Source: an uncultured Demequina sp.
GTDB lineage: Bacteria; Actinomycetota; Actinomycetes; Actinomycetales; Demequinaceae
Length of the DNA: 64,000 nt
Assembly: GCA_937925595.1 (NCBI GenBank)
Contig: CALALQ010000106.1
Span: 1-64,000 of the forward strand
Direction: 5' to 3'
Within the stretch, counting starts at the first letter, position 1. The number at the start of each line of letters is the position of its first letter. The position numbers and the translations under genes are program-made. The notes below the pieces were generated by a model, which saw only the letters and a program-made list of their open reading frames with translations, ran no database searches and was not told where the DNA came from. This document shows, one piece after another, positions 2,517 through 38,888 of this stretch.

Positions 2517-2597
2517 GATGTGCCTCCTTCCGAGGTCCCGCTGCGGCTGAACTTCCGCAGCGCGGTGTTTAGTTGTTGCTTCCCCTTGCGGGGTCTT
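2517..2597 (-). promoter_or_regulatory. structured 5' leader shared with element B (copy A)
   Basis: In the minus direction the order is a CCCC-GCAA-GGGG mini-hairpin (2582-2593), an ACAACTAAA tract, a 7-bp stem GCTGCGG/CCGCAGC, GACCTCG, then AAGGAGG and the ATG of the 128-aa gene. The same order and several identical blocks occur at 40817-40901. The 5' part overlaps the end of the replication-relaxation gene. Confidence 0.5.
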
Positions 2598-3453
2598 GGG
2601 CCGAGACGGAAGCCTCGGCGGTCTGGGTAGTCGCCGCGATAGCGGCGACCAGTTCGTCGGTGGTGCGGACGAGAAACAGCTCCGGGTCGAGTCCGCGTTC
2701 CTTCTCGATCGCGCCTCGCAGCAGCTCGACGCGTCGCTTGGTGGGGAGCAACCAGAGCACGCGCGGGTAGACGCCGCTGCGCTGTTGCTCGATGCCGGAG
2801 CGTTGGTAGTCGGTGTACACGTGGCACTTCTTGATCAGGGTCTTGGTCGACTCGGTGCCGCGGTCGACCTCGATGAACCAGTGATCCTCGAACTCGCCCG
2901 AGGCGGTCACCACGGCGAGGTCTGGTTTCACGATTCGGACCCCGCCGACGGCTCCGGGGAAGCTGCGCCAGTTGCGTGGCTCGCCCCGGATCTCGAGCAG
3001 CTCGAACAGTCCGGCACGAGATGCCTGAACGAGCCGGACGGCGGCATCTGCGACTTCGAGGGTGTGGTCGAAGAAGGTGTGCGACGGGTCGAAGCGCGGC
3101 TTGCGTCGCTGGTCGCCGTGACCTTCGACATGGCGCAGCAGTCGTTCGCCGGCCGCGCCGAGCATCCAGACGGAAGCCAACCCGCCTCCGCCGATACCGC
3201 CTTGTCCTCGCTTCGTGGCGCTGATCAGTCGGTAAGAACTCAGGCGGTTGAGTGTTCGGTGGCAGGCCTGCTTCGACGCCACCGGGGTGCGATGCGAGGA
3301 GAAGAACAGGTCGCGCAGATGCGCTGTCGTGAGCAGCCGGTACTCGCGTAGAGCCCGCAACAGCTCCAAGTCTCTTTCAGTCACGAGAGTTTCAAGTCGC
3401 CGGACGCCAATCGTTCCTCTGCGATTGTTCGGCCGCGGGTCAAGCGAGGTCAT
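2569..3453 (-). CDS. replication-relaxation family protein (element A)
   Basis: A 294-aa protein of the replication-relaxation family, found on actinobacterial plasmids and integrative elements and presumed to act in element replication or DNA processing. The N-terminal third is a winged helix (TERDLELLRALREYRLLTTAHL...CHRTLNRLSSY). The middle carries EVDRGTES followed by a Lys/Tyr-rich helix (LIKKCHVYTDY), resembling a PD-(D/E)XK-type core. It lies directly downstream of the VirD4-like ATPase gene on the same strand. The element B paralogue at 35107-35961 keeps EVDR and the K-C-x-x-Y segment. Exact biochemical activity is unproven. Confidence 0.78.
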   Translation of the reverse strand: MTSLDPRPNNRRGTIGVRRLETLVTERDLELLRALREYRLLTTAHLRDLFFSSHRTPVASKQACHRTLNRLSSYRLISATKRGQGGIGGGGLASVWMLGAAGERLLRHVEGHGDQRRKPRFDPSHTFFDHTLEVADAAVRLVQASRAGLFELLEIRGEPRNWRSFPGAVGGVRIVKPDLAVVTASGEFEDHWFIEVDRGTESTKTLIKKCHVYTDYQRSGIEQQRSGVYPRVLWLLPTKRRVELLRGAIEKERGLDPELFLVRTTDELVAAIAATTQTAEASVSAQDPARGSNN

Positions 3454-3597
3454 GGACGGCGTCCTTCGGAACTGGACCTGTCGCTGAGGCGACGAGTCGG
3501 CTTCCGTTGCGGCGTGACTTCGCCGGGTGGACGGGCGACGTCGGGCAAGGAATAGTCGGCGGCGGTCCGGGCGGCGGGACTTCCTCTCATCAGATAC

Positions 3598-5721
3598 TTA
3601 GGAGGCACGACGCGGCCTCCTTCCAACACCGGTCGCAGGCGACGGAGTGACGTCCGGCTCACTTGGCTCGACGTCGCTCGTGGTGATCCTGGCGCCGTAG
3701 TTCTGCTGGCTGCGGCGGATGACCTCGGCCGGGTCGGAGATGGCCGGGCTCGGTGGCAGGCTCTTGCCGCTGACCCACGGAGTCGGGTGCCCGTTCGCGA
3801 GCAGCTGCGCGTAAAAGTGATACTGCGGCAGTGCCATGAAGTCCTCGGGGGCGAGGCCAGGTGCCATGGACGCGAACTCCTTGGCGTCGTGGATGCCGGT
3901 CGCAAAGACCACCTTGCTCCTAGCGTTGGCGTCGATGGCCGCGAGCACTTCCGGGTTCCACTGCCTCCTATGTTGGGCAATCAGAGTCCAGCCGACGTTC
4001 ATCGAGCGGGACCGAGCTAGCGCGTCAGGGAGGTCGTGGCCGGAGATGCGGAAGACCTCCGGCGCCTCGTCGATGTAGATCGACACCGGACGCCGCTGCG
4101 CCGCTGGCACCGCTGTGCGTCCGAGCGTCAGACCCCACAGGGCCGAGGTGATAAGCGATCCGAGCAGGCGAGCCGACTCGGAACCGATCAAGCCGGAGTT
4201 CAACGGCACCACCAGGATGCGTTGCTCCTTGAACACGTCGCTCAGGTCGAAGCGCGGCTCGGCCTGATCGAGCGGACGACGCAGCTGCGGTCGGAGAAGG
4301 AACTGGCGAAGTCGGGACAGAACTGGTCCGGCGTACTGCGCCTGCTGGTGCTCGCTCATGGCGTCATAGGACGCCCAGAACTGACGCAGATAGTCGTCGC
4401 GGACCTCCGGCATGATCCGAGCGCGGAATCCCGGCTCGGACAGCAGTCTCGGCAGCCAGGCGATCGTCGCACCGGGAATCGGCGCGATCGTGGACAGCGC
4501 CGCCAGCAACACGTCGGCGGTGCGTGGCCCGAAGTAGTTGGAGTAGAGGTCGCGGATCACGCCGACGATGTCATCGACGCGCAGATCCGACGAGCGTCCG
4601 TTGCCGGCCAGGACATTGAGTCCCGGTGGGAAGTCCATCGCTGGATCGAGCACGACGACTTTGTCCTCTGCCTCCTTCGGGATGCGGGATAGCACCAGGT
4701 CGAGGGCGAGTTCGGCCTTGGCGTCCATCACGACGACCGATCGTCCTGCTCGGATGTCGGCCTCGATGAGGTGCGACACCAGCACCGACTTACCCGAACC
4801 GTTCGGCCCGGTGATCGACAGGTGACGGGTGCTGTCTTCGATGCTGAGCCCTAGCGGGATCTCTTCGCCCGGCGCGGTCGAGACGCCGAACACCCGGGTC
4901 TGCTCCGTGAGCTTCGGCGATGGCCGCAGCTGCTTCGGATGGCGTGGCGGCATCCCCGGCATCGCGTCGCTATCTAGCGGCAACCCCAGCAATCCGACCA
5001 GCTCATCGGGGGCCAGCTCCGCTCGGTAGCGGACGAGCGGTTCCTCGAGTCGAGTCACGTCGGCCGCCGAGAAGTCCATCCGTGTGCCCGGCCCGACTGC
5101 AGTGCGGAGCGCTGCAACCAGCCCCGAGAGCAGCTTCCTGATGCGTCCTTTCGTTGTCGCGCTTGCGGCCAGTCGGATGTGAACGTCGAGCTTCGGCTCG
5201 GCGGCTTTGGTGCGCAGACGCCTCGCGACTTCGGTACTCGGAGCGCGCGACCCGAGTAACAACTGCGACAGGAAGCCTTGGGTTGGATCGAACGGCTTCT
5301 CGCTGAGCAGGCTCGGCGCACGTCCCGCGCCGACCGTTACCTGCAGCATCAGTGCCTCTTCTTCGCCGGCCTCGGAGAGCGCGGCGAGGATCGCCCGGCT
5401 GACCGTCTCGGCGCTGCGGGTGTCCAGGCCAAGGGAGGCGCCGCGGAGTTGCAGCTTCAACGCCATCCCGTACTCAGGTGTCTTGATCCGATCCGGCTCG
5501 ATGTCCACACCGCCCACGAGCGCGCGCAGCAGTCGCAGCACGCCTTCGACGGCATTCGTACTCGTGCCGATGCGGTGCCGTACCTGACCGCCTTGCCCGA
5601 TGGCTTCGAGCATCAGCGGGGCACGGTCTCGTTCAGCTGCCAACCGGCGCAGCAGCTCCACTGCCTGTGCGGCAGGGAGCGGCTGCGGCCAGTGGACCCG
5701 CTTCCAGTGCGCGGCCGTCAT
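3598..5721 (-). CDS. VirD4/FtsK-like conjugal transfer ATPase (element A)
   Basis: A 707-aa P-loop ATPase of the VirD4/TraG/FtsK-like coupling protein group, expected to pump or couple element DNA during transfer. Walker A GPNGSGKS is near residue 304 and Walker B IYIDEAPE near 549. No convincing transmembrane helices are visible. I chose ATG 5721 because it overlaps the stop of the 68-aa gene (ATGA); a longer open frame to 6006 would overlap that gene in another frame and looks spurious. The element B paralogue is at 36151-38301. Confidence 0.82.
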   Translation of the reverse strand: MTAAHWKRVHWPQPLPAAQAVELLRRLAAERDRAPLMLEAIGQGGQVRHRIGTSTNAVEGVLRLLRALVGGVDIEPDRIKTPEYGMALKLQLRGASLGLDTRSAETVSRAILAALSEAGEEEALMLQVTVGAGRAPSLLSEKPFDPTQGFLSQLLLGSRAPSTEVARRLRTKAAEPKLDVHIRLAASATTKGRIRKLLSGLVAALRTAVGPGTRMDFSAADVTRLEEPLVRYRAELAPDELVGLLGLPLDSDAMPGMPPRHPKQLRPSPKLTEQTRVFGVSTAPGEEIPLGLSIEDSTRHLSITGPNGSGKSVLVSHLIEADIRAGRSVVVMDAKAELALDLVLSRIPKEAEDKVVVLDPAMDFPPGLNVLAGNGRSSDLRVDDIVGVIRDLYSNYFGPRTADVLLAALSTIAPIPGATIAWLPRLLSEPGFRARIMPEVRDDYLRQFWASYDAMSEHQQAQYAGPVLSRLRQFLLRPQLRRPLDQAEPRFDLSDVFKEQRILVVPLNSGLIGSESARLLGSLITSALWGLTLGRTAVPAAQRRPVSIYIDEAPEVFRISGHDLPDALARSRSMNVGWTLIAQHRRQWNPEVLAAIDANARSKVVFATGIHDAKEFASMAPGLAPEDFMALPQYHFYAQLLANGHPTPWVSGKSLPPSPAISDPAEVIRRSQQNYGARITTSDVEPSEPDVTPSPATGVGRRPRRAS

Positions 5722-5924
5722 GACGGCTCCTCCGACTCGTCCGTCTTCGCGGTCGAGCCGTGGGCTTCCGACTCGGCCTCGCGGGCGAGTTGTTCCTTGG
5801 CGAGCGCGATCAGGGCGCGCGCCAGTTTGCGGGTATCTGGCACCTCGCGTTTGATTCCGCGCACGATGATGCGGCGGGTGCGGGCCGGTCGCCCGCGTCG
5901 TGCGTGACGTTTCTTTCTCGTCAT
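5718..5924 (-). CDS. small basic protein preceding VirD4-like ATPase (element A)
   Basis: A 68-aa protein with a strongly basic N terminus (MTRKKRHARRGRP) followed by an Ala/Glu-rich helix and an acidic tail. The element B counterpart (38288-38506) has the same layout and the same position directly upstream of the ATPase gene. Its end overlaps the ATPase start by four bases (ATGA), so the two are translationally coupled. Function unknown; a DNA-binding accessory of transfer is possible. Confidence 0.7.
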   Translation of the reverse strand: MTRKKRHARRGRPARTRRIIVRGIKREVPDTRKLARALIALAKEQLAREAESEAHGSTAKTDESEEPS

Positions 5925-6007
5925 GCTTGTCCTCTTTCTGCACGCAAGGACAAGCGGCCCGTCTGTTCGGCGGGCAATGACGCCCGCCTCGTTTGTGCAG
6001 GCTCAAT

Positions 6008-6046
6008 ACGAACTATCTGGCCCGATTTGTCAAGCACGAGCGGGAT
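6008..6046 (-). promoter_or_regulatory. probable promoter of element A transfer operon
   Basis: On the minus strand TTGACA lies at 6033-6028. The -10 is unclear, with weak candidates 17-19 bases on. The sequence just upstream of the -35, ATCCCGCTCGTGCTTGACA, is almost identical to that of the promoter at 43845-43886 in element B. It is about 100 bases upstream of the 68-aa gene. Confidence 0.4.
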
Positions 6047-6060
6047 GCCCGCGGCTCTCG

Positions 6061-6252
6061 TTACCAGCGATTTCGTCGCCATCTGAGCCAGGCGAGCAGC
6101 AGCCCAATCCCCGCGACGATGATCCCGGCGAGCAGCAGCCACCCCCAGATCCGGCTCAGCACCTCGCTCGCGAGCCACAGCACGACGGTGCCGAGCAGCA
6201 CGAGCCAGACGGCGGACCACAGGATCGTCATGAACGATCTCGGCTCTTGCAT
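6061..6252 (-). CDS. small two-helix membrane protein (element A)
   Basis: A 63-aa protein with two hydrophobic segments (about residues 9-29 and 34-55) and a basic C terminus RWRRNRW. The element B paralogue at 38679-38885 shares the IWGWLLL motif at the start of helix 2 and an R-R-x-R-W end. Conservation between the elements argues that it is a real part of the module, perhaps a membrane adaptor for the ATPase. ATG 6252 directly follows an in-frame TAG, so no longer start is available. Confidence 0.7.
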   Translation of the reverse strand: MQEPRSFMTILWSAVWLVLLGTVVLWLASEVLSRIWGWLLLAGIIVAGIGLLLAWLRWRRNRW

Positions 6253-6306
6253 CTACGTACCCCTTCTTGTCGGCGACGCGGTTGGACTTCCGAACCTGTC
6301 GCGCCG

Positions 6307-6774
6307 TCATCGGTCTGTCTCCTTCTCCGGCCAGACGAGGCCTGCGTCGAAGACGTGGAAGTAGTGGTCCTCCTGGACGAGCAGGTACTGCTCGCGGACC
6401 ACTGGCCATAGCGCGTCGAAGTCCCAGTCGAGCGCGGCATCCGGCAGCCCCTGGTCTTCGAGGAACCGCTGGAGCGCCACGTCGTACTCGGCGATCTCGA
6501 GTCCGGTCTGGATGACCTCGTCGCGGGTGTAGCTGCCGAAGTATTGGCCGTGGAACTGCTGCTCGATGTCCTCGGCCGCCGGGTTGACGTCTTGGAACTG
6601 CAGGAACGCCGCGACCGCCGCCCCAGACTGCTCGTAGAGGTTCAGCAGGCGCTTGGCGGCCTTGCGGGTCGGAAGGCGCGTGAGCATCTCCGCCATCACG
6701 AGATCGGCTTCGGCCTTGGTGATCGACTTCATCCGCCGCTCAGGTGGCGACGTCGCGTGCTCAGGACTGTTCAT
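6307..6774 (-). CDS. ArdA-like antirestriction protein (element A)
   Basis: A 155-aa acidic protein whose C-terminal half has an ArdA-like pattern: EDIEQQFHGQYFGSYTRDE, then an aspartate/tryptophan-rich helix, then a closing Y-x-x-V...D-H-Y-F-H-V-F segment. ArdA proteins mimic B-form DNA and inhibit type I restriction enzymes, which suits an incoming element. Its start overlaps the end of the MT-A70 gene by 14 bases. Related C-terminal modules occur in the two 267-268-aa proteins at 33171-34823. The match is by pattern only. Confidence 0.5.
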   Translation of the reverse strand: MNSPEHATSPPERRMKSITKAEADLVMAEMLTRLPTRKAAKRLLNLYEQSGAAVAAFLQFQDVNPAAEDIEQQFHGQYFGSYTRDEVIQTGLEIAEYDVALQRFLEDQGLPDAALDWDFDALWPVVREQYLLVQEDHYFHVFDAGLVWPEKETDR

Positions 6775-7405
6775 CGCCGGCCTCCTCGCTCGCGTCTGCG
6801 AACTTGGCGTCCGAGGGGACCGGGAAGCCCCACTCGGCGAGGCTGATGTCGCTGTCGACCTCGTTGCCCCAGACCGAGAACTCCTTGCCCTCGATGACCG
6901 GCGGACGGCGGCGTGCGAACAGCTCGAGGTACTCGCCCGGGCTGACGCGCGTGACGATCGAGAAGAACTCCTCGGGCTTGTGGCTGTGGTCTTGGACCGG
7001 GAAGAAGCCCCAGTTCGGCTGGCTCTTGTAGAGCACGGGCGCTTTGCCCTTCGTCGCGAAGATCAGCTGCTCGGTGGCGTTACGCAGGTAGTTGCCGAGC
7101 CCGAAGCGCGGCTTCACCCAGGTGAACAGCGACCGTGGCGTGAACCCCCACGCCCGCGCCAGCTCGTAGCTCGCCTCGAGCGCGGCGTTCGTCGACCACA
7201 GCCACAGGTGCGCGTTCTCCTGGGCGAGCTCTCCGACCGGGAGCTGCTTCAAGCGCTCCATGCTCATCAGCGGGTAGTGGTTGATCGCCCCGTGCTGACC
7301 CGTCTGCAAGACGTCGGTCGGCGGGTCCGCCACGATGCAGCCGAACTTGCCGCGAACCTCCGGACGAGGGAGTTTGTCCTTGATGTTGATATCGGTGTTG
7401 GTCAT
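6761..7405 (-). CDS. MT-A70 family adenine methyltransferase-like protein with DPPT (element A)
   Basis: A 214-aa protein of the MT-A70 family of N6-adenine methyltransferases. The catalytic D-P-P-W signature reads VADPPTDV, so Trp is replaced by Thr. Other family features are kept, including WLWSTNAAL, GLGNYLRNATEQLIFATKGK and ELFARRRPP. The element B paralogue (38889-39518) has the canonical ADPPWDI. Such enzymes on mobile elements may protect element DNA. The altered motif suggests weakened or redirected activity. It overlaps the downstream ArdA-like gene. Confidence 0.85.
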   Translation of the reverse strand: MTNTDINIKDKLPRPEVRGKFGCIVADPPTDVLQTGQHGAINHYPLMSMERLKQLPVGELAQENAHLWLWSTNAALEASYELARAWGFTPRSLFTWVKPRFGLGNYLRNATEQLIFATKGKAPVLYKSQPNWGFFPVQDHSHKPEEFFSIVTRVSPGEYLELFARRRPPVIEGKEFSVWGNEVDSDISLAEWGFPVPSDAKFADASEEAGDEQS

Positions 7406-10999: not shown

Positions 11000-12028
11000 A
11001 TGAAGCGACGAGATTTCCGCACCATCAGAATTTCAGGTACTCCTCAGATCCAACGGGGGGGGGCGTTAGTGAGGAAGCGGGGATTCGCTCTTCCGACCGT
11101 GCTGCTCAGCGCTGTCGTGATGTTGATGATCCTTGTCACGGCCGTTTCCGTGACCTCCGCGGTTAGCAGCGGCCTTCGAGATCAGCGCTACACCGAACTC
11201 GCTTCTCAAGCTGCTGAGGCCGGTACGGTCATGGCCACGGCTTGCTTGAACCAGAACGGCGGCCAAGCGAGTTGGACGAACGCGAATCCACTTCGGCCGA
11301 ACACCGACTGCTCGGGCACGGTCATCTCAGGACTATCGGCCTACGTTCTCGAGCAGGACGACGTCCGAACCTATTTCGTCGTCCAGCAACCTCTCCTCGG
11401 CGCGGGCAATGTGCCGGTCTCTTCCGCGGTGAAGGGCTACTCCGAGGTACTACGGACCTCGTCGGGAACGGCCTGGCGAGTGTGGAGCTCGGATACGTCG
11501 GTGGCCCTGGTCACAGCCAACGATGGGCTGCCAGTAGGCAGCTACCTCGAGGGTGCTTGGACCACTGCTCCGGCCGGATACCTGCTCGCTGACGGTACGG
11601 CGGTGTCGCGCACGACCTACGCCAATCTCTTCGCTGTGATCGGGACTACCTACGGTGCAGGGAATGGGAGCACGACGTTCAACCTGCCCGACTTCCGCGG
11701 ACGGGTGACTGTGCAACAGAGCACGGACACCGAGTTCGACGTGCTCGGCGAAAAGGGCGGTGCAAAGACTCACACGCTGACGATCGCGCAGATGCCGTCG
11801 CATACGCATGCGCTTGTGGTGGGCGCTGGGACAGAGCCTCAAGGTAACGGATGGGCCGCGGGCGAGGTGTACCAGCTCTGGGGTACCGATCGAAACGTCG
11901 CTCCGGCTTGGCGAAACGTGAACAGCACCTTCCATGGCGGGTGCGGCGTTGTCAGCTGCAACGGCAGCAATCAGCCGCATAACATCCTCCAGCCCTATGC
12001 GACCGTGAGCCGGGCGATCAAGTACTGA
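11000..12028 (+). CDS. prepilin-like protein with phage tail-collar tip domain (element A)
   Basis: A type IV prepilin-like N terminus (RKRG then FALPTVLLSAVVMLMILV) is followed by a linker of about 130 residues and a phage tail-collar domain (YLEGAW...AGYLLADGTAV...TTYGAGNGSTTFNLPDFRGRV). The protein ends in the collar-type QPYATVSRAIKY. The mature protein would begin at Phe after Gly cleavage and lacks Glu5, as in GspK/PilX-like minor pilins. Either ATG 11000 (next to the promoter) or GTG 11069 (directly before RKRG) may be the start. A G9 tract at 11055-11063 lies between them. No pilus assembly ATPase is nearby, so the protein may join a host-encoded pilus. The paralogue is at 47277-48347. 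Confidence 0.8.
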   Translation: MKRRDFRTIRISGTPQIQRGGALVRKRGFALPTVLLSAVVMLMILVTAVSVTSAVSSGLRDQRYTELASQAAEAGTVMATACLNQNGGQASWTNANPLRPNTDCSGTVISGLSAYVLEQDDVRTYFVVQQPLLGAGNVPVSSAVKGYSEVLRTSSGTAWRVWSSDTSVALVTANDGLPVGSYLEGAWTTAPAGYLLADGTAVSRTTYANLFAVIGTTYGAGNGSTTFNLPDFRGRVTVQQSTDTEFDVLGEKGGAKTHTLTIAQMPSHTHALVVGAGTEPQGNGWAAGEVYQLWGTDRNVAPAWRNVNSTFHGGCGVVSCNGSNQPHNILQPYATVSRAIKY

Positions 12029-16444: not shown

Positions 16445-16492
16445 ATGAGTAGCGCACGAAGCACGACGCACGCGAGGGTGGTGGCGTGGTAG
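16445..16492 (+). CDS. 15-aa leader peptide coupled to hsdM
   Basis: ATG 16445 is preceded by GGAGGAG at 8 bases. It encodes MSSARSTTHARVVAW and stops at TAG 16490-16492, whose last G is the first base of the hsdM GTG (TAGTG). hsdM itself has no good ribosome site, so its translation probably depends on ribosomes finishing this peptide. Confidence 0.55.
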   Translation: MSSARSTTHARVVAW

Positions 16493-18930
16493 TGGCGCTC
16501 AAGAAGTCGGACCTGTACAGCTCACTCTGGAAGAGCGCAGATGAGCTGCGCGGCAGCATGGATGCGAGCCAGTACAAGGACTACGTCCTGACGCTCCTGT
16601 TCGTAAAGTACGTCTCGGACAAGGCGAAGAGTGATCCGGACAGCCTGATCGAAGTTCCCGACGGTGGGTCCTTCGACGACCTCATCGCGCTCAAGGGCAA
16701 GCCGAACATCGGCGAACAGATCAACATCGCGATCCGGAAGCTCGCCGAAGCCAACGATCTGCAGGGCGTCATCAACAAGGCCGACTTCGACGAGTCGCAG
16801 AAGCTTGGTGACGGCAAGGAGAAGGTTGACCGCCTCTCCAACCTCATCGGCATCTACCAGGACATCGACTTCACTGGCACTCGCGCCGAAGGAGACGACC
16901 TACTCGGCGATGCCTATGAATACTTGATGCGCCACTTCGCGACAGAGTCAGGCAAGAGCAAGGGGCAGTTCTACACGCCCGCCGAAGTCTCGCGCGTCAT
17001 GGCGCAACTGCTCCAGATCCCCGCGGACGCCCAGCGCTCGACCACCGTCTACGACCCGACCTGTGGCTCGGGCTCGCTCCTCATCAAGGTGGCGGACGCG
17101 GCGCCGCATGGGCTCACGATCTACGGTCAGGAGAAGGACGAAGCCACCTGGGCGCTTGCCCGGATGAACATGATCCTGCACGGCAACACCACCAGCGACA
17201 TTCGACTCGGCGACACTCTTGCCAACCCCAAGTTCAGGTCAGGAACCAAGCTCGACACTTTCGACTTCCTAGTCGCCAACCCACCGTTCTCAGTCAAGAC
17301 CTGGCAGACGGGCTTCGACGCGACGGTTGGTCGCTTCGACGGCTTCGCTGAACCGCCCGCCAAGAACGGCGACTACGCCTTCCTGCTGCACATGGTGAAG
17401 TCTTTGAAATCGGAGGGCCGCGGCGCGGTGATCTTGCCGCATGGTGTGCTCTTCCGCGGCAACGCGGAGGCCACGATCCGACGCGAGTTGATCGAGCGCG
17501 GCTACATCAAGGCGATCGTCGGTCTGCCGGCGAACCTCTTCTACGGCACGGGTATCCCGGCCTGCATCATCGTTCTCGACAAGAAGGACGCCGCCTCCCG
17601 AAACGGCATCTTCATGATCGATGCCAGCAAGGGCTTTGAGAAGGACGGTCCGAAGAATCGGCTTCGTCCCCGTGACATGCACAAAATCGTCGATGCCTTC
17701 CTGAAGGGTGCCGACGTTCCTAGATATGCCCGGATGGTGTCGAAAGCTGAGATCGCAGACCCGAAGAACGACTACAACCTCAATCTCCCGCGCTACATCG
17801 ACTCGTCTGAGCCGGAGGACATCCAGGATCTGCACGCGCACTTGAAGGGTGGTATTCCGAACCGAGACCTCGACGCGCTGCAGCCGTATTGGGACGCCTT
17901 CCCGTCGCTTCGTAGCGAACTATTCGAGCCACTTCGCGACGGCTACTCGCAGCTCAGGGTCGACAAGACCGAGATTCAGGCGACCATCACCGGCTCTCCC
18001 GAGTACCAGTCGTTCGCCTCCGGTACCCATGAAGCGGTTGCTCAGTGGTGGGCGTCCCACCGCGGGCTGCTCGAGGGCGTCGAGCCGACTACCCGGCCCA
18101 GCAATCTCGTCTCAGAGCTGGGCGAGTCGCTTCTCGATCTATTCCGGCCGCGCCCACTGATCGATGAGTACGGCGCTTACGAGCAGCTCATGCGGTACTG
18201 GAATGAAACCATGCACGACGACGTCGCCCTGATCATGGGCGAGGGCTGGACGGGAGCCGCCAAACCCCGGAAGGCGATCGAGGACAAGGAGCGGAAACTC
18301 TCCGAGACCGCTGACTTGGTGATCGGCTCCGGGCGCAGCGCTTCCAAATGGAAGATGGACCTGGTCCCGCCTGAGCTGATCGTCGCCCGATACTTCGCAG
18401 CTGATCGCGACCAGCTGGACGCGCTGAACGCCGCGCTCGAAAATACGAGCCAGACGATCGAGGAGTTCATCGAGGAGAACTCCGGCGAAGACGGTCTGCT
18501 GGCCGAGGCCACCGAGGACGACAAGATCACGAAGGCGCTCGCCGTGGCGCGGCTCCGCGTAGCCAAGGCCGAGGACCCCGAATCGGAAGAGGTCGAGGCC
18601 CTCGCCAAGCTCATCAAGCTTTATGACGACGAGACGACCGCGAAGCGCGCTGCCAAGGAGGCGGCAGCCAAGCTCGACGAGAAGACCTTGGCCCAGTACG
18701 GGAAGCTCACCGAGGCGGACATTAAGACGCTGGTCATCGAGGACAAGTGGGGCGCGACGGTCTCCCGCGGTATCGAGGCAGAGCTTGCCGCGCTGATCCA
18801 CAAGCTCGTCGAGCGGCTGCGGGTGCTGGCTGGCCGGTACGAGGCAACGGTGAGCGATCTCGACAGCAAGGTCAGGGAACTGAGTGCCAAGGTCGCCGCG
18901 CATCTCTCAGGTATGGGGGTGAATTCATGA
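16492..18930 (+). CDS. hsdM: type I restriction-modification methyltransferase subunit
   Basis: Type I DNA adenine methyltransferase subunit. An N-terminal HsdM helical domain (SLWKSADELRGSMDASQYKDYVLTLLFVKYVSD, split here only by position) precedes the catalytic domain. That domain has SAM motif I DPTCGSGSLL near residue 187 and catalytic NPPF near 263. At 812 aa it is longer than typical HsdM (~500); the extra C-terminal 300 residues are charged and helical. The start is GTG 16492, coupled to the leader peptide; GTG 16486 is an alternative. Its stop overlaps the hsdS start (ATGA). Confidence 0.93.
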   Translation: MALKKSDLYSSLWKSADELRGSMDASQYKDYVLTLLFVKYVSDKAKSDPDSLIEVPDGGSFDDLIALKGKPNIGEQINIAIRKLAEANDLQGVINKADFDESQKLGDGKEKVDRLSNLIGIYQDIDFTGTRAEGDDLLGDAYEYLMRHFATESGKSKGQFYTPAEVSRVMAQLLQIPADAQRSTTVYDPTCGSGSLLIKVADAAPHGLTIYGQEKDEATWALARMNMILHGNTTSDIRLGDTLANPKFRSGTKLDTFDFLVANPPFSVKTWQTGFDATVGRFDGFAEPPAKNGDYAFLLHMVKSLKSEGRGAVILPHGVLFRGNAEATIRRELIERGYIKAIVGLPANLFYGTGIPACIIVLDKKDAASRNGIFMIDASKGFEKDGPKNRLRPRDMHKIVDAFLKGADVPRYARMVSKAEIADPKNDYNLNLPRYIDSSEPEDIQDLHAHLKGGIPNRDLDALQPYWDAFPSLRSELFEPLRDGYSQLRVDKTEIQATITGSPEYQSFASGTHEAVAQWWASHRGLLEGVEPTTRPSNLVSELGESLLDLFRPRPLIDEYGAYEQLMRYWNETMHDDVALIMGEGWTGAAKPRKAIEDKERKLSETADLVIGSGRSASKWKMDLVPPELIVARYFAADRDQLDALNAALENTSQTIEEFIEENSGEDGLLAEATEDDKITKALAVARLRVAKAEDPESEEVEALAKLIKLYDDETTAKRAAKEAAAKLDEKTLAQYGKLTEADIKTLVIEDKWGATVSRGIEAELAALIHKLVERLRVLAGRYEATVSDLDSKVRELSAKVAAHLSGMGVNS

Positions 18931-20123
18931 CCGCAAGTGAATGGCTGATGATGACTGTGGGCGACGTTGCAAGAGTCAAGGGTGGTAAGCGGCTGCCCGC
19001 CGGATACTTTGTTCAGACAGAACCCACTCCCTATCCATATATCCGCGTCACCGACATGAGAGACGGCGGGATAGATGACTCGGACATCAAGTACGTTCCA
19101 GTGGCGGCTGCGCCGCCCATCCGCGCGTACCGAATCCGAAGCAACGACATCTTCATTAGCGTCGCAGGAACGCTGGGGGTTGTTGGGCGGGTTCCCGATT
19201 GGCTTGATGGAGCCAACCTGACCGAGAACGCTGACCGCATTACCGACATCAAGTGTGACGTCGACTACCTCGCTCAGTACCTTCGCAGCGCGCCGATTCA
19301 GAACGAGATCGACTCGATCCGTACGGTTGGGGCGCAGCCAAAGCTCGCGCTTGGACGCATCAAGACCTTTGAGTTGCTGATTCCGGAAGATCGATCGGAA
19401 CAGTCGCGGGTCGCTCAAGCACTCGGGGATGCCGATCGCCTGATCGATTCGCTCAGGCGGCTCATCGCTAAGAAGGTGGCGATCAAACAGGGCATGATGC
19501 AAGAGCTGCTCACGGGCACGACCCGACTTCCAGGGTTCACAGGCGCTTGGCGATCCGCGTTGTTCGCAGAAGTGGCAAACCCGGTACGAGAGCGCGCCGT
19601 TCCTCAAAGCGTTAGCGGACGAGTCGTGGAGCTCGAGCATATAGAAGGAGGCACCGGTGCGCTGATCGGTGATGCGGATGTGTCTGAGTCAATCTCGATG
19701 AAGACCGTGTTCGCACCGGGGGACGTACTTTTCGGTAAGTTGCGCGCCTACTTGCGCAAGTTCTGGCTGGCGGACCGTTCTGGCTACTGCTCGACCGAGA
19801 TCTGGGCGCTTCGCGCCCGACCAGGAATCGCTCGGGGCGAGTTTGTTCGTTACATCGTGGAAAGCGACTCCTTCATCGAAGCAGCGAGTACGGCTTACGG
19901 GACACATATGCCTAGGTCCGACTGGAGTGTCGTGTCCAAGTTCGAAGTCGCGCTTCCGCCCCTCGACGAGCAGGCGGCTATTGCAGAGGTACTCGCGAAT
20001 GCCGATGCCGAAATCACCACGCTCAAACGTCGCCTTGAATCCGCCAAAGCCATCAAGCAGGGCATGATGCAGGAATTGCTCACCGGACGGACCCGCCTGG
20101 TAGCGGAGGGGGTTGCAGCATGA
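18927..20123 (+). CDS. hsdS: type I restriction-modification specificity subunit
   Basis: A 398-aa specificity subunit with two target-recognition domains. Each is followed by a conserved helical repeat ending QGMMQELLTGxTRL (about residues 185-200 and 375-392). The two half-sites of the recognition sequence are read by these domains. ATG 18927 overlaps the hsdM stop and the gene's stop overlaps the hsdR start. The perfect repeat of the QGMMQELLTG block would allow domain swapping by recombination. Confidence 0.93.
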   Translation: MTASEWLMMTVGDVARVKGGKRLPAGYFVQTEPTPYPYIRVTDMRDGGIDDSDIKYVPVAAAPPIRAYRIRSNDIFISVAGTLGVVGRVPDWLDGANLTENADRITDIKCDVDYLAQYLRSAPIQNEIDSIRTVGAQPKLALGRIKTFELLIPEDRSEQSRVAQALGDADRLIDSLRRLIAKKVAIKQGMMQELLTGTTRLPGFTGAWRSALFAEVANPVRERAVPQSVSGRVVELEHIEGGTGALIGDADVSESISMKTVFAPGDVLFGKLRAYLRKFWLADRSGYCSTEIWALRARPGIARGEFVRYIVESDSFIEAASTAYGTHMPRSDWSVVSKFEVALPPLDEQAAIAEVLANADAEITTLKRRLESAKAIKQGMMQELLTGRTRLVAEGVAA

Positions 20124-23100
20124 GCGTCGGGCAGATCGAGCGCAAGGCGCAGAACCGGATCGTGAAGTTCTTCCAGCACCAACTCGGCTACGAGTACGGC
20201 GGGAACCGGGAAGACCTCGACAACGCGAACATCGACGAAGCTTTCTTGCGACAGAACCTCACTGCCCGGGGCTACGACGATGAGGTCATCAGCAAGGCTG
20301 TTCAGCAGTTACTGACCACCACGTCGCTCGCAGCTGGACAGTCTCTCTATGACACCAGCCGCAAGGTCTATGAACTGCTTCGCTATGGCGTCAAGGTCAA
20401 GCGTGGCGTCGCCGCTGCGACCGAGACGGTCTGGCTCCTCGACTGGGACAACCCCGAGGCCAACCACTTCGTCATCGCGGAGGAGGTGTCGATCAAGGGC
20501 GAGCACAACAAGCGCCCCGACATCGTCCTCTATGTCAACGGCATCGCGCTCGCGGTGATCGAGCTGAAGCGCTCGTTTGTGAGCGTCAGCGAGGGTATTC
20601 GCCAGAACATCGGCAATCAGAAGCAGCATTTCGTCCGACCCTTCTTCACGACCGTCCAGCTGCTCTTCGCAGGCAACGACACGGAGGGTCTCCGCTACGG
20701 CGTGATTGAGACGCCGGAGAAGTACTGGCTCGAGTGGAAAGAGCCGGAGGGAAGCTCTGTCGGCGCTGGTATAGAAAACCGACTGGACCGCGCACTGGCG
20801 CAGATGGCGAACAAGGATCGCCTTCTCGAGCTGGTCCACGACTTCATCGTCTTCGACGCCGGAATCAAGAAGACCGCACGGCACAACCAGTACTTCGGGG
20901 TCAGGGCGGCCCAGGACCGAGCCAAGGCTCGGGAGGGTGGCATCATCTGGCACACCCAGGGCTCCGGCAAGTCGCTCACAATGGTGTGGCTCGCGAAGTG
21001 GATCCGAGAGCACCAGGAAGACGCGCGCGTTCTGATCATCACCGACCGCACCGAGCTCGACGAACAGATCGAAAAGGTGTTCGGAGGTGTCAACGAGCAG
21101 ATCTACCGCACGACGTCCGGCGCAGATCTCATCAATCAGATCAATAAGAACCAGCCTTGGCTCATCTGCTCGCTTGTTCACAAGTTCCGAGGCGATGGCA
21201 AGGACGACGAGGACGACGTTGAGGCCGGCGACGAGTTCATCAAAGAACTCAACTCACGCCTCCCCGAGGGCTTCTCGCCCAAGGGCAATCTGTTCGTGTT
21301 CGTCGATGAGGCTCATCGCACCCAGAGCGGCAAGCTCCACAAGGCGATGAAAGCGCTGCTGCCGAACGCCGTGTTCATCGGCTTCACCGGCACCCCGCTC
21401 CTGAAGGCCGACAAGGCGACCAGCATCGAGACGTTCGGTTCCTTCATCCATACCTACAAGTTCGACGAAGCTGTTCGTGACGGCGTCGTCCTTGATCTTC
21501 GCTACGAGGCCCGCAACATCGACCAGGAGCTTTCGAGCGCCGACAAAGTAGACAAGTGGTTCGAGGCCAAGACCAAGGGCATGACCGACCTCACCAAGGC
21601 CGAGCTGAAGAAGCGGTGGGGCACGATGCAGAAGGTCGTCTCGGCCGAGCCGCGGGCTAAGCAGATCGTGCAGGACATCCTGCTCGACATGGAGACACAG
21701 CCTCGGCTGGTCGACGGGCGCGGCAACGCGATGCTCGTCAGTGAGAGCGTCTACCAGGCGTGCAAGTTCTACGAGATGTTCGTGCAAGCCGGGTACAAGG
21801 GCAAGGTCGCGATCGTCACCAGCTACGTCCCAAACCCGACCGCCATCTCGAAAGAGGACGCGGGCGACGGCGATAACGAAGAGATCCGGAAATACGAGAT
21901 CTATCGCCAGATGCTCGCCGACCACTTCGGCGTCAGTCCCGATGATGCGGTCGGGCGGATCGAGGAGTTCGAGAAGGAGGTCAAGCGCAAGTTCATCGAG
22001 GAGCCGGGCCAGATGCGCCTGCTCATCGTGGTGGACAAGCTCCTGACCGGCTTCGACGCGCCAAGCGCGACCTATCTCTACATCGACAAGAAGATGCGCG
22101 ATCACGGACTCTTCCAGGCGATCTGTCGGGTGAATCGGCTCGACGGCGATGACAAGACCTACGGCTACGTCATCGACTACCGAGACCTGTTCAAGTCGAT
22201 GGAGACGGCGATCAACGACTACACCTCGGGCGCCCTCGACGGTTATGCCAAGGAGGACATCGAAGGTCTGCTTAAGGACCGTATCGAGGAAGCCCGCATC
22301 GACCTCGACGACGCTCTCGAGCTGGTCCGGGCTCTTTGCGAGCCAGTAGCACCACCAAAGGAAACCGAGCAGTACCTGCACTACTTCGCGACCAGCGAGC
22401 CGGGCGACATGACGCAGATAAAGGCCAACGAGGGCAAGCGCGTCGATCTCTACAAGAGCGTCTCATCGCTTGTTCGCGCCTATGCCGCAGTTGCCAATGA
22501 CATGGACGCCGCTGGGTACTCGGCTGCTGATGCTGCAGCAATCAAGAAGGAAGTGGCGTACTTCGTCGCTGTTCGGGACGAGGTGAAGCAGGGCGCCGGG
22601 GAAAACGTCGACCTCAAGCAGTTCGAGGCCGGCATGCGCCGACTGCTCGACACCTACATCCAGGCGGATCCGTCTGAGACTGTGGCGGAGTTTGAAAAGG
22701 GCCTGGTCGAGCTCATCGTTGAGCGCGGCGCCGACGCGATCGATTCGCTGCCGGAGGGAATTCGCAAGAACCAGGAAGCGGTCGCCGAGACGATCATCAA
22801 CAACGTGCGTCGCACGATCATCGACGAGCACGCGATGAACCCGAAGTACTACGACAAGATGTCTAGTCTCCTGGATGCGCTCATCGAGCAGCGTCGCAAG
22901 GAGGCCCTCGACTACGCGAAGTACCTTGAGCTGCTGCTCGAATTCGCGGCCAAGGTTGGGACCGGCGCTTCAGAGACGAAGTATCCCGACTGGGCCTCGT
23001 CGCCGGCAAAGCGAGCGCTCGTTGATTTCGACTGGCCCGACGGCGTCGATCCGCAGTTCATCTACGAGACCATTCAGGCCAGCAAGGAGCATGGCTGGAC

Positions 23101-23224
23101 GGGGAACCTCTTGAAGCAACGCGCCCTCGCGAAGGCTCTGCGGCGGGCGCTTCCCGAAGGTTTCGAGAAGGAGCGGCTGGACGCGCTCATCGCTCTCGTG
23201 AAGGGACACGATGAGTACCAGTAG
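20120..23224 (+). CDS. hsdR: type I restriction-modification endonuclease/translocase subunit
   Basis: A 1034-aa HsdR. The N-terminal nuclease domain has RPDIVLYVNG...VIELKRS (PD-ExK, about residues 132-152). The SF2 translocase has Walker A TQGSGKS near 280 and DEAH near 396. A helical C-terminal region would bind HsdM/HsdS. Length is normal for the family. It shares 14 bases with the next gene, so the metallopeptidase belongs to the same operon. Confidence 0.94.
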   Translation: MSVGQIERKAQNRIVKFFQHQLGYEYGGNREDLDNANIDEAFLRQNLTARGYDDEVISKAVQQLLTTTSLAAGQSLYDTSRKVYELLRYGVKVKRGVAAATETVWLLDWDNPEANHFVIAEEVSIKGEHNKRPDIVLYVNGIALAVIELKRSFVSVSEGIRQNIGNQKQHFVRPFFTTVQLLFAGNDTEGLRYGVIETPEKYWLEWKEPEGSSVGAGIENRLDRALAQMANKDRLLELVHDFIVFDAGIKKTARHNQYFGVRAAQDRAKAREGGIIWHTQGSGKSLTMVWLAKWIREHQEDARVLIITDRTELDEQIEKVFGGVNEQIYRTTSGADLINQINKNQPWLICSLVHKFRGDGKDDEDDVEAGDEFIKELNSRLPEGFSPKGNLFVFVDEAHRTQSGKLHKAMKALLPNAVFIGFTGTPLLKADKATSIETFGSFIHTYKFDEAVRDGVVLDLRYEARNIDQELSSADKVDKWFEAKTKGMTDLTKAELKKRWGTMQKVVSAEPRAKQIVQDILLDMETQPRLVDGRGNAMLVSESVYQACKFYEMFVQAGYKGKVAIVTSYVPNPTAISKEDAGDGDNEEIRKYEIYRQMLADHFGVSPDDAVGRIEEFEKEVKRKFIEEPGQMRLLIVVDKLLTGFDAPSATYLYIDKKMRDHGLFQAICRVNRLDGDDKTYGYVIDYRDLFKSMETAINDYTSGALDGYAKEDIEGLLKDRIEEARIDLDDALELVRALCEPVAPPKETEQYLHYFATSEPGDMTQIKANEGKRVDLYKSVSSLVRAYAAVANDMDAAGYSAADAAAIKKEVAYFVAVRDEVKQGAGENVDLKQFEAGMRRLLDTYIQADPSETVAEFEKGLVELIVERGADAIDSLPEGIRKNQEAVAETIINNVRRTIIDEHAMNPKYYDKMSSLLDALIEQRRKEALDYAKYLELLLEFAAKVGTGASETKYPDWASSPAKRALVDFDWPDGVDPQFIYETIQASKEHGWTGNLLKQRALAKALRRALPEGFEKERLDALIALVKGHDEYQ

Positions 23225-23936
23225 CGCCTACCTCACCATCGCCGGGCTCAATGTCGATGTCATCTACAAGGACATCAAGAACCTACACATTTCGGTCTAT
23301 CCACCGGTCGGACGAGTTCGAGTCGCGGCTCCCGAGCGGATGGACGACGACACTGTGCGTCGCGCCGTGGTTCAGCGTCTCCCGTGGATCCGACGCCAGC
23401 GCGACCAGCTCCGGGCCGCTGAGCGGCAGGACAAGCGCCAGATGCTTTCTGGAGAGACCCATTACGTCTGGGGCGAGCGGTATCGCCTGGATGTCTCTCG
23501 AACGAGCGGTCATCACAGAGTCGAGCGATCCGGAACGACCCTCTGGGTGGTGGCTTCGGAAGGTGCCGACGCCGAGGAACGATTCGCGGTTCTGGATCGT
23601 TGGTACCGGCGCGAACTCAAGGCGGCTATACCTCCGTTGCTTGAGAAGTGGGAGCAGCGAATTGGCGTGAAGTCATCGCGCTTCGTGGTGAGGCGCATGA
23701 AGACCAAGTGGGGCACGTGTGCCCGCGATTCACGTGCGATCTGGTTCAATCCCGAGCTCGCCAAGAAGAATCCGCGCTGCCTCGAGTACATCGTCGTTCA
23801 CGAGTTGACTCACTTGATCGAGCGGGCGCATGGCGACCGCTTTGTGGAATTGATGGATCGCCACCTGCCGGATTGGCGTGCCCGGCGAGACGAACTGAAC
23901 GGCGCACCGCTTGCCGATGAGGAGTGGTCGGAATGA
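23211..23936 (+). CDS. YgjP/SprT-type metallopeptidase (DUF45)
   Basis: A 241-aa protein of the YgjP-like M48-related zinc metallopeptidase family. It has a conserved KTKWGTCA motif, then VVHELTHLIERAHGDRF, with His-Glu-x-x-His and a downstream His as zinc ligands. Members commonly sit next to hsdR, and their role in type I systems is not settled. It overlaps hsdR by 14 bases and the OLD-family gene by four (ATGA). Confidence 0.88.
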   Translation: MSTSSAYLTIAGLNVDVIYKDIKNLHISVYPPVGRVRVAAPERMDDDTVRRAVVQRLPWIRRQRDQLRAAERQDKRQMLSGETHYVWGERYRLDVSRTSGHHRVERSGTTLWVVASEGADAEERFAVLDRWYRRELKAAIPPLLEKWEQRIGVKSSRFVVRRMKTKWGTCARDSRAIWFNPELAKKNPRCLEYIVVHELTHLIERAHGDRFVELMDRHLPDWRARRDELNGAPLADEEWSE

Positions 23937-25888
23937 GGCTCATCAAGGCTGAGTTCAAGGGCTTCGGTCGGTTGGCCGACGCCAAGGTCAACCTCGACAA
24001 CAAGGTCATTGCCATCGTTGGACCGAACGAGGCGGGCAAGACCACGCTCCTCAAAGCGCTCGCGTACATCGACAATGGCCGTTCGCTGTCGGTGTCGGAA
24101 CGATCTCGGGGCACCGATGTCGTGGCCGACGGGCAGATCGTCGTGCGTGTTCAGCATTTGCTCGATGACGCTGACCGGGAGCTTGTCCGTGACCTCGATC
24201 TTGAGGAACTCCCCAAGTCTCTGTGGCTTTCGCGAACGGCAGCAGGGGGCGATGTCATCAAGGAAGTAGTGCCTACTCCTCGTAAGGCCGTCGCACCGTT
24301 GAGATCGGCGCTGGCAGCCCTTAAGAAGTCCGCGACCAAGTCCAACTTTGACGCCCTTGCGCCGGTCGTCCCGGACGAGGAAGCAGATACGGAAGTCGAT
24401 TCCGACGAGGCAAGACTTTCATTCGCGACACGGCTCGCCGATGCCATCAACGCGGTCGACCCTGATGTCGAGGCGGCGACGTTGCCTGGTGTGGGCGCCG
24501 GGTTGAACCCCGCAGCTTGGCTTGCCGAGTTCGACGCCTTCGACCTCGCAGGGCCGATTCGTGACGCCTTGGAGCCGGTACGCGACTGGGTAGAGCGTCC
24601 GGATCCAGCGGCCGAAGTTGAACAGCGTCTCTTCGACGAGTCGGCTGACCTCCTGCTCTTCGGCGACGAGGATCGGACACTGAATTCGACCTACGCCCTG
24701 AGCGACGAGGTCGTGGCAAATCCGCCTGCGGCGCTCCGCAACCTGGCAACGATGGCTGACCTTCCGCTTGATCAGCTCTGGATGACCATCAACAACGGCG
24801 ACGAGGGTGCGCGCGAGACTCACATCGAGAAAGCGAATCAGGCGCTGAGCGCGAAGTTCAAGACGGCCTGGAAGCAGTCGACCCTCACGGTCCAACTCAA
24901 GATCGAGGGCAGCACTCTCGCGATTCGGATCAAGCAGGACGGCAACACGATCACTCAGTTCCACGAGCGCAGTGCTGGCCTTCAGATGTTCGTCGCCCTA
25001 GTCGCCTTCTTGACGGTGAAGGGTCAAACCGTGCCGCCCGTGCTGCTTATCGACGAGGCCGAGACCCATCTTCATATCGACGCTCAGGCTGACCTCGTCA
25101 ACACGTTCATGACGCAGCAGCAGGCAGCCAAGATCATCTACACCACGCATTCGCCGGCCTGCCTTCCTCCTGACCTTGGTTCCAACATCCGCGCGGTTCT
25201 GCCTGACAAGAAGAACGGTCAACGGAGCGTCATCGAAGGCAGTTTCTGGCATGGAGCCGCTGGCTTCTCGCCGCTAATGCTCGCGATGGGCGCGGGTGCG
25301 GCAGCCTTCTCCGCGGCCCGGCGCGTAGTGCTCGCCGAGGGCGCTTCGGAGATGTTGTTGATGCCCTCGTTGGTGAAGGCGGCGATCGCGGTTGCAGACC
25401 TGGACTACCAGGTAGCCCCCGGCCTCTCCGAAGTGCCGGCCACCATGTATCCCGAACTAGACCTCGAAGGTGCTCGCGTGGCCTTCCTGGTCGATGGAGA
25501 CCATGGGGGCCTGGCTATCAAAGACGCGCTCGTGAAGTCCGGCGTGTCCGAGAAGCGGATCGTCACCCTCGGCACCTTGACGCTCGAGAACTTGCTCGAT
25601 CCCGTGGCCTACCGAACCGTGATTGCGAATCTGATCAACGATGCCAACCCGTCGATCTCGATTCAGATCGACGACGTCCCTGAGCTTCCAGATCCGTCGA
25701 GTAACCTCTGGCCAGACTTCGTCGAGAACTGGGCGAAGGACAAGGGCTACCTGCTTCCGGGGAAACGAGCCGTCGCCAGCAAGCTGGTCGAAGAAGGATT
25801 GGCGACTCCGAGCGACTACGGCCGACCGATTCTTGTCGAGGCACACAAGCAACTGACGGCGCTCCTCGCGGGCAAGAAGCAGTCATGA
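23933..25888 (+). CDS. OLD-family ATPase with TOPRIM nuclease domain
   Basis: A 651-aa protein. The N-terminal ABC-type ATPase has Walker A GPNEAGKTT near residue 30 and the D-E catalytic pair in LLIDEAETHLHI near 371. The C-terminal TOPRIM domain has VLAEGASEMLL near 466 and FLVDGDHGG near 518. This architecture is that of overcoming-lysogenization-defect nucleases such as GajA. It is paired with a helicase gene downstream, a pairing known from Gabija and class 2 OLD loci. ATG 23933 overlaps the upstream stop; the gene's stop overlaps the helicase start. Confidence 0.85.
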   Translation: MRLIKAEFKGFGRLADAKVNLDNKVIAIVGPNEAGKTTLLKALAYIDNGRSLSVSERSRGTDVVADGQIVVRVQHLLDDADRELVRDLDLEELPKSLWLSRTAAGGDVIKEVVPTPRKAVAPLRSALAALKKSATKSNFDALAPVVPDEEADTEVDSDEARLSFATRLADAINAVDPDVEAATLPGVGAGLNPAAWLAEFDAFDLAGPIRDALEPVRDWVERPDPAAEVEQRLFDESADLLLFGDEDRTLNSTYALSDEVVANPPAALRNLATMADLPLDQLWMTINNGDEGARETHIEKANQALSAKFKTAWKQSTLTVQLKIEGSTLAIRIKQDGNTITQFHERSAGLQMFVALVAFLTVKGQTVPPVLLIDEAETHLHIDAQADLVNTFMTQQQAAKIIYTTHSPACLPPDLGSNIRAVLPDKKNGQRSVIEGSFWHGAAGFSPLMLAMGAGAAAFSAARRVVLAEGASEMLLMPSLVKAAIAVADLDYQVAPGLSEVPATMYPELDLEGARVAFLVDGDHGGLAIKDALVKSGVSEKRIVTLGTLTLENLLDPVAYRTVIANLINDANPSISIQIDDVPELPDPSSNLWPDFVENWAKDKGYLLPGKRAVASKLVEEGLATPSDYGRPILVEAHKQLTALLAGKKQS

Positions 25889-34823: not shown

Positions 34824-35110
34824 CGGCGTCCTCCGCCCGAGATAATGAAGCGGCCCAACATGTCGAGCCAGATCTCGCGCTCCAAGGGAACACGCACTTC
34901 GTTGATCTCTTCCAGTGCTGCTTGGGCGTCGAGGTGACCGCTGGCCGCGAAGCGCTCCAGTGCTGTGCCGGGGCCGGCATGGACACTCGCGGCAATCAGC
35001 CGAGCGAGATTCTCGTTCTGAGCCTCTGGGTCAAGGTCGAGCCAGCAACTGATGAGATCGCGAGCACGCCCGTTTTGATCCGGTCCAGTGGTGATGATGG
35101 TTGGTGTCAT
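34820..35110 (-). CDS. free-standing copy of the ArdA-associated N-terminal domain
   Basis: A 96-aa protein (LARLIAASVHAGPGTALERFAASGHLDAQAALEEINEV...REIWLDMLGRFI) that aligns with the N-terminal 90 residues of the two ArdA-like proteins downstream. ATG 35110 overlaps the end of the replication-relaxation gene (ATGA) and an AAAGGAGG lies inside that gene. The domain has no known name to me. It may be a dimerisation or targeting module. Confidence 0.6.
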   Translation of the reverse strand: MTPTIITTGPDQNGRARDLISCWLDLDPEAQNENLARLIAASVHAGPGTALERFAASGHLDAQAALEEINEVRVPLEREIWLDMLGRFIISGGGRR

Positions 35111-35961: not shown

Positions 35962-36083
35962 GGCGACCTCCGGATCTGGGGGAGCGGCCGACGGACACTG
36001 CTTGAGCAGGGACAGTCCCAGCCCGCGCTGGCCCGTCAGGGGCGGACAGGGGCCGAATGGGGCGGCTTGTCCTCGTCATGAAC

Positions 36084-36104: not shown

Positions 36105-36150
36105 ACCGGACAAGCGCGCTCCGTGGTGGGTGGGTATATCGTCGCCCTAC

Positions 36151-38885: not shown

Positions 38886-38888
38886 GCC

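Follow-up and report, generated by a model that had tools for sequence, protein, structure and literature searches.

We found that two genes in the 64,000-nucleotide stretch of DNA analysed here (the window), referred to as copies A and B, each encode a pilin-like N-terminal module fused to a phage-type collar end, and that the two genes lie on two related integrative elements. The account we favour is that these proteins are tip pilins of a Saccharibacteria type, captured as cargo by defence-laden elements and acting in cell contact as tip adhesins; for identity, origin and role taken jointly, we put its chances at about even. The fusion was evident in both genes, and the pilin-like nature of the module was read from sequence.

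Architecture of the two fusion proteins

The open reading frame (ORF) of copy A occupies 11000-12028 on the forward strand. A GTG at 11069 is its likely start, judging from relatives such as P0001, whose sequences open with VRKPGFALP, and the putative gene therefore spans approximately 11069-12028. Sequence reading placed a short, basic leader peptide (VRKRG, 11069..11083; same start in relatives) in front of the predicted prepilin cleavage site, at which a Gly codon at 11081 is followed by FALPTVLLSAVVMLMILVTAV, with its Phe at 11084. The leader leads into a hydrophobic helix, FALPTVLLSAVVMLMILVTAVSV, with Thr and not Glu at +5 (11084..11152), and then into a pilin-like module with an A/S-EAG motif (11153..11515), assigned from alignments and a weak match to PilX-position genes. 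The module is about 145 residues long in both copies, and its Cys58, Cys80, Gly122 and Trp135 were invariant across the alignments. The C-terminal half matched Pfam Collar (PF07484, E 1.3e-20) and Gp10_C (PF21939, E 1.7e-6). It begins with a collar core (11531..11815) made up of a Collar stretch (11555-11707) and the start of Gp10_C, and the family profile matched the long tail fiber chain 8kec at E 1.3e-16. A hypervariable distal segment follows (11816..11962), which is the putative receptor-binding part, and a conserved motif closes the protein (QPHN..LQPYATVSRAIKY, 11963..12025); all of these features are on the forward strand.

Copy B (47373..48347, forward strand) had the same architecture by Pfam and sequence comparison, with Collar PF07484 at 47838..47990 on the same strand (E 6.8e-21) and a Gp10_C match just below the cut-off (26.3 versus 27 bits). 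Both copies were intact, with more than 300 codons each. When the composition of 56 window genes was compared (mean GC3 0.78, s.d. 0.067), copy B had the lowest GC (0.564) and GC3 (0.62) of all, and copy A was unexceptional, its GC3 of 0.74 lying near the window mean.

An earlier note on this DNA had described a prepilin site, G/FALPTVL, joined to a phage tail-collar tip in two copies, and these parts of the description were borne out, since the prepilin-like leader and helix joined to the Collar/Gp10_C end were present in A and B alike. The distal tails had indeed diverged (14% identity between A and B), and that of copy B was rich in His, Asn and Thr, as reported. The same note had called the collar core nearly identical and the gene duplicated in both elements, and these two statements did not stand. 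The cores of A and B were 79% identical in protein, 72% in DNA and 48% at third positions, and 41 of their 75 identical residues had the same codon; identity was 60% in leader plus helix, 58% in the module and 62% in the terminal motif. In the module tree (67 rows, 66 of them different), A fell within a 16-row clade (100/98) and B within a 6-row clade (99/99; B is counted twice there, as B and P0033), both inside one 25-row group (92/85). The two copies are in separate supported subclades and therefore do not stem from a recent duplication; together with the third-position identity, the tree ruled out recent duplication of one gene. By sequence, the collar core of A and B is conserved and not recently copied. 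A further module, from a Gulosibacter element described below, paired with P0073 outside the 25-row group, both being long branches of unsure placement.

Variation of the tip within the family

A full-length homologue search, of which the best 120 of 4979 matches were listed, returned the fusion of a FALP-type helix start with a collar in 61 of the 120 listed homologues, among them P0033, which is copy B. Because it is common to so many of them, the fusion seen in A and B is beyond chance. Nine of the other 59 listed homologues still matched the module by BLAST. When the module alone served as query, 37 proteins were found, and 35 of these had a collar; the remaining two ended differently, P0123 (E 3.1e-10) in a tip rich in Gly and P0122 in one that is FGE-like (Pfam E 0.0045, below the cut-off), indicating that the tip is swappable. 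Furthermore, mean entropy over 63 aligned rows was 3.0 bits in the distal part, 0.96 bits in the core and 0.99 bits at the C-terminal end. Proteins P0002-P0006 were 84-100% identical to A in leader-helix plus module and 81-88% in the core, and 12-35% identical in the distal part. A stable module and core with a varying distal part is the pattern of an exchangeable, putatively receptor-binding tip, and the earlier proposal of a pilin-like subunit with an end of the phage receptor-binding type gains support from this contrast between conserved core and hypervariable distal part.

The profile of the module matched one of 396 Micrococcales genomes, namely that of Gulosibacter macacae (G001), the centre of the sample itself, and two of 396 Actinomycetota genomes, which were G001, again as sample centre, and one weak PilX match. 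Seven genomes that had been reached through other loci gave no module match, a result that is uninformative.

Relation of the module to type IV pilins

As in modular pilins, the residue at -1 was Gly (56 rows) or Ala (7 rows) in all 63 rows and was followed by a hydrophobic helix, and the extra C-terminal domain of A and B (Collar, Gp10_C) is not specific to pili. The residue at +5 was Thr in 61 rows, Ser in two and never Glu, where the 63 rows (copy B counted twice, as B and P0033) had been chosen by a helix motif that fixes Thr or Ser at +5, and separate alignments agreed. Loss of Glu5 is known in tip subunits such as GspK. The cleavage site is non-canonical, yet leader and helix would fit a class III signal.

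Neither the A nor the B module matched Pfam N_methyl (PF07963) at a limit of E 10, within which the HMMER filters drop most matches above E 0.1. The NCBIfam prepilin model NF007660 matched copy A weakly (E 0.002; 18.6 bits against a cut-off of 86) and did not match copy B. Among solved structures in the PDB none matched the module, the best (E 0.052) not being a pilin, and comparison of the module with Saccharibacterial pilins by hhalign aligned 38 columns at a probability of 0.8%. Weak matches to the module were obtained in two further Actinomycetota genomes, G114 (E 9.3e-4 with a single sequence; 3.3e-4 when the profile was run on 4869 ORFs from the fetched loci) and G591 (E 5.9e-4 with the profile). 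Both were the PilX-position gene of a type IVa pilus (T4aP) operon, the operons being read by eye, and the PilM of G114 was confirmed by Pfam. The module thus weakly resembles PilX-type minor pilins, and copies A and B are candidate modular, PilX-like minor type IV prepilins. G114 is a Microbacteriaceae genome bin with two T4aP operons on separate contigs (L125 and L127), beside apparent rpsL/rpsG/fusA genes; these may be two loci, or the bin may be mixed.

The two elements in the window

The window contains two related integrative elements whose Replic_Relax, coupling-protein and MT-A70 genes are 36-45% identical between A and B. In element A, the core of Replic_Relax, HerA/T4SS-coupling-type ATPase and MT-A70 genes was assigned by Pfam to 2569..7405 on the reverse strand, and its cargo on the forward strand (16486..28569) comprises type I restriction-modification (RM), a YgjP-like metallopeptidase, an AAA ATPase and a PDC-S53-type helicase; no recombinase of element A was recognised within the window. 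A large serine recombinase with C-terminal HTH repeats (30357..32906, reverse strand) was attributed to element B because the gene order is the same in Gulosibacter, where contig 14 of G001 has the series recombinase, small genes, Replic_Relax, coupling protein and MT-A70. The Replic_Relax, T4SS coupling protein and MT-A70 genes of element B lie at 35107..39608 (reverse strand), and the stretch 50485..51657 (forward strand) holds a small protein and a DUF3846 gene, each of which has relatives in the element of Gulosibacter. Its cargo at 52971..59832 consists of type III RM and CBASS with a patatin-type effector and an SMODS cyclase.

Several further features of the window were recorded. Between the recombinase and Replic_Relax of element B, 33171-34823 holds two adjacent paralogues (33% identical) to which annotation gives no function, and relatives of these occupy the equivalent place in G437 and G001. 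A 44-nt direct repeat (2562-2605 and 40866-40909; 84% identical, 38.3 kb apart) is possibly an element boundary or a shared terminator. A tRNA-Arg(CCT) gene (30-104) borders the element array on its left, and exact repeats of 14-20 nt from positions 31-139, covering most of this tRNA and the bases that follow, were absent from the rest of the window. When the MFS protein at 60878-62125 was compared with 100 genomes of Microbacteriaceae, the sole family sampled, roughly half of them had a counterpart at 50-56% identity, and a host within Micrococcales is therefore likely.

The absence of assembly machinery nearby, also remarked on before, was confirmed in that no pilus assembly family was found by Pfam (E 0.001) in 57 window ORFs, which were picked by length and codon-position GC and are not every mechanical ORF. 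The same 57 ORFs gave no phage structural family besides an HTH match to a terminase model; the protein concerned (59834-60487) had the terminase-ATPase HTH model among its ten HTH model matches. In addition, no PADLOC model matched copy A or B at E 0.001.

Pilins on related elements

Type IV prepilins were also found in related elements of three other genomes: G001, G524 (apparently Paenarthrobacter sp. JL.01a) and G437. The element of G. macacae is 70-73% identical to those of the window in MT-A70 and 46-48% in the coupling protein, and has DUF3846 and its neighbour in common with them. It carries its own prepilin of the A/B module family, which has a different C-terminus and is truncated at the start of a transposase gene that we take to be IS110-like, and additionally three FTIVELL prepilins; two of these four pilins have the same GC as their locus. 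The transfer-type core is present in each of the three elements that carry a pilin of the A/B module family, namely window A, window B and the Gulosibacter element. In G437, a bimodular prepilin with a Fib_succ_major (PF09603) tip lies inside a related element (L230, 9775-10917). In G524, a genome without detected PilM, a Micrococcales element holds five tandem type IV prepilins (L234, 15398-18117), flanked by HTH genes at 14633-15082 and 18622-19056 whose proteins are 74% identical. The five pilin ORFs have a GC of 0.48-0.53, where the host side of the element has 0.64, and the restriction genes beside them are equally low (0.52-0.54), so that by GC the cargo as a whole looks foreign, not just the pilins. 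As evidence on the origin of the pilins, GC is ambiguous.

When 347 Micrococcales genomes were searched with the coupling protein of element B (E 1e-30), 16 of them gave a total of 21 places. Eleven of the 12 closer places had recombinase and Replic_Relax genes, and the one in G302 had Replic_Relax before the contig ended. For 11 coupling-protein places the flanks were examined as far as 20 kb in either direction, or to the end of the contig where that was nearer; G001 was examined in L004 and L314, and nine more distant places by one stretch of at most 20 kb each. These nine gave no prepilin, recombinase or MT-A70 match; they were taken as another element type and excluded from the 11. The two-domain architecture that the earlier note had proposed to look for in other integrative elements was thus followed up in part: prepilins were present in two of the 11 sister elements (G437 and G524; G001, first found through its pilin, is excluded), and in the other nine the motif scan and the module profile detected none over about 20 kb on each side. 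The scan recovers canonical pilins in T4aP loci L125, L127 and L251 and misses ordinary PilX genes (those of L125, L280 and L281), and the negative result in nine elements is therefore not proof of absence. The same scan found no prepilin in 40 control segments, each of 20 kb and together 800 kb, which came from nine of these genomes. Fisher's test gave p 0.12 by segment (2/22 versus 0/40) and p 0.04 by element (2/11 versus 0/40), or p 0.01 (3/12) when the biased G001 was added. Because the cases are few, the scan has these limits and its pattern was fixed after a looser scan had already revealed element pilins, the association of pilins with elements is suggestive and not established. In a few cases, then, pilins of such types have been captured more than once by Micrococcales integrative elements without machinery.

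Relatives in Saccharibacteria

The fusion protein has one organism-named full-length relative among the 120 listed, P0028, from Candidatus Saccharibacteria. For the G524 pilin, of which the best 120 of 7969 matches were listed, four of the five organism-named rows were Saccharibacteria and the fifth was its own genome; the best Saccharibacterial relative among the matches listed was 72% identical over 99%, and nine rows without an organism name ranked among the named ones, at up to 77%. The fusion family looks at home in Saccharibacteria, where the named relatives are few and appear to point one way, and we infer that transfer of the window genes ran from Saccharibacteria to the element.

Saccharibacteria are very small bacteria that live as parasitic episymbionts on actinobacterial hosts. 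In TM7x, deletion of PilX2, a minor pilin with an extra domain, cut the proportion of bound host cells from 10.6% to 4.6% (PMC12206443). Of nine Saccharibacteria phages co-targeted by other bacteria, seven are reported to be hit by actinobacterial spacers (PMC10746230), which argues that mobile DNA meets both partners.

Pilus machinery in host genomes

PilM was detected in just two of 11 genomes tested, G437 and G114. It was absent from G001 and G524, that is, from two of the three other pilin-bearing genomes, suggesting that at least two hosts of element-borne pilins lack an assembling T4aP. G001 had one borderline prepilin-peptidase match, and two of its three T2SSF matches were in an apparent Tad locus. 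G437 combined a strong two-domain T2SSF/PilC match and PilM with the element bearing a modular pilin. In sampled Microbacteriaceae, PilM was present in 97 of 199 genomes.

Discussion

The S74 peptidase domain is familiar from phage tail spikes. Modular type IV pilins have been described from Streptococcus sanguinis PilB and PilC, and that report counts 264 architectures, one of them with an S74 peptidase domain (Raynaud 2021, PMC8179133). They are described there as having a small N-terminal pilin part and a bulky grafted C-terminal binding domain, with a presumed position at the pilus tip, a plan that A and B resemble; its main text makes no mention of a collar (PMC8179133). Unlike them, A and B lack Glu5 and an N_methyl match, and their genes lie on integrative elements with no machinery found nearby. 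A second likeness is with PilX1 and PilX2 of TM7x, which are presented as minor pilins that carry an additional C-terminal domain and for which no PilD signal peptide is predicted; PilX2 takes part in binding of the actinobacterial host (PMC12206443). Compared by description, the extra domains of PilX1 and PilX2 are a jelly roll and a beta-propeller and not a collar, and the organism has two pilus machineries, whereas none was found by A and B in the window (PMC12206443). The elements themselves resemble Micrococcales serine-recombinase elements with a TcpA/HerA-type coupling protein, which have a recombinase, Replic_Relax and mostly MT-A70, with the order of element B in Gulosibacter; the type name (Replic_Relax plus TcpA/HerA-type coupling) was coined in this analysis. 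Unlike the window elements, most sampled Micrococcales sister copies show no pilin.

Modular pilins and Saccharibacterial PilX proteins with extra domains are thus already described (PMC8179133, PMC12206443). A literature search of titles and abstract openings of open-access articles found no description of collar-tipped pilins or of pilins as cargo of actinobacterial elements. Within the literature searched, three things are new: a collar as the tip, different tips exchanged on the same module, and pilins that recur on actinobacterial integrative elements without visible machinery.

Several other explanations were weighed against the capture of Saccharibacteria-type tip pilins as contact-acting cargo. 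An element might supply an adhesive tip for the T4aP of its own host, for host attachment and with no special link to Saccharibacteria. The frequency of PilM in Microbacteriaceae, the machinery that accompanies the modular pilin in G437 and the weak kinship of the module with PilX-position genes speak for this, but PilM was not found in G001 or G524, the module profile was confined in Micrococcales to the sample centre, and the organism-named relatives of the G524 pilin among the matches listed are Saccharibacterial; we regard it as unlikely. The genes could also be passive passengers, Saccharibacterial DNA that was picked up accidentally, has no function in the actinobacterium and is decaying, as the low GC of copy B, the truncated Gulosibacter copy and the two hosts without PilM would suggest. 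The intact reading frames of A and B, the conserved module and core across the 16 rows of the A clade and the near-average GC3 of copy A make this unlikely. In a third proposal the protein is a defence, an episymbiont-type tip that occupies, as decoy or mask, the receptors used by Saccharibacteria. Defence systems are present on both elements (type I and type III RM, CBASS), pilins resembling those of the episymbiont recur on elements, and a membrane-anchored version would need no machinery; against it, neither protein matched a PADLOC model, and the wall of a monoderm may cover a tip that is anchored in its membrane, so that we judge it distinctly improbable. A broader form, an arms race in which elements repeatedly steal host-binding tip pilins from parasitic Saccharibacteria and display them as decoys or attachment modifiers, is to our mind rather improbable.

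We judge these host-tip, passenger and decoy explanations to be live rivals, and recognition of mating pairs to be weaker. The earlier note had favoured a mating-pair recognition fibre of the element, and it is true that window A, window B and Gulosibacter each pair a module-family pilin with Replic_Relax and coupling-protein genes. That reading is nevertheless poorly supported and quite doubtful, given that nine of the 11 elements found by coupling protein had no visible prepilin, that the type and position of the pilin vary between elements and that assembly genes were absent among the scanned window ORFs. A prophage remnant was likewise considered, in which the gene would encode a phage tail protein behind a plain signal anchor. 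The collar half does resemble minor tail proteins of Microbacterium phages (in one case at 53% identity over 49% of the query): those of YellowPanda, Brahms and Noelani share the collar core and the C-terminal motif at 44-53% identity over the matched part, but in TinyTimothy (P0108), checked by residue, good alignment to A starts at the collar and there is no pilin module. Phage structural families were lacking in the 57 scanned ORFs, a single-sequence module scan of viral contigs gave five pattern matches of which none was a relative, and of the 19 pattern matches from an alignment scan one was a relative. A prophage origin was disfavoured and is extremely improbable. The single relative from these scans is on IMG/VR contig L279 (9035-9883), where a FALPTVL module, with an FGE-like tail fragment recognised by eye in a separate small ORF, adjoins an apparent type III RM locus and other type IV prepilins. 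This contig (39% GC) is filed as viral; it is probably not a virus, and no tail gene was visible by eye.

For captured tip pilins acting in contact, the following course of events is proposed. Prepilin peptidase would cut the leader of A and B, and the helix would then join the tip of a type IV filament, by analogy with GspK and the modular pilins. A position at the tip is favoured because the bulky end and the absence of Glu5 suit a cap. The collar core would support variable distal loops that bind a receptor on a bacterial surface, as phage fibres suggest. Display may take place on the type IV pilus of the host where there is one, and otherwise as a membrane-anchored domain. The genes would be retained because the displayed tip alters cell-to-cell contact. 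We judge a predicted contact role, most likely between actinobacterium and episymbiont, to be the best single account.

How Saccharibacteria choose their actinobacterial hosts is an open question, for which tip pilins are strong candidates, and sequenced strains can be named for its study, apparently Paenarthrobacter sp. JL.01a and Gulosibacter macacae. The findings hint that genes for the grappling hooks of a parasite are traded with its actinobacterial hosts. If this is true, pilins of this type with swappable phage-like tips and hypervariable ends, recurring as cargo on actinobacterial mobile elements, would tie gene exchange to defence islands and to episymbiosis.
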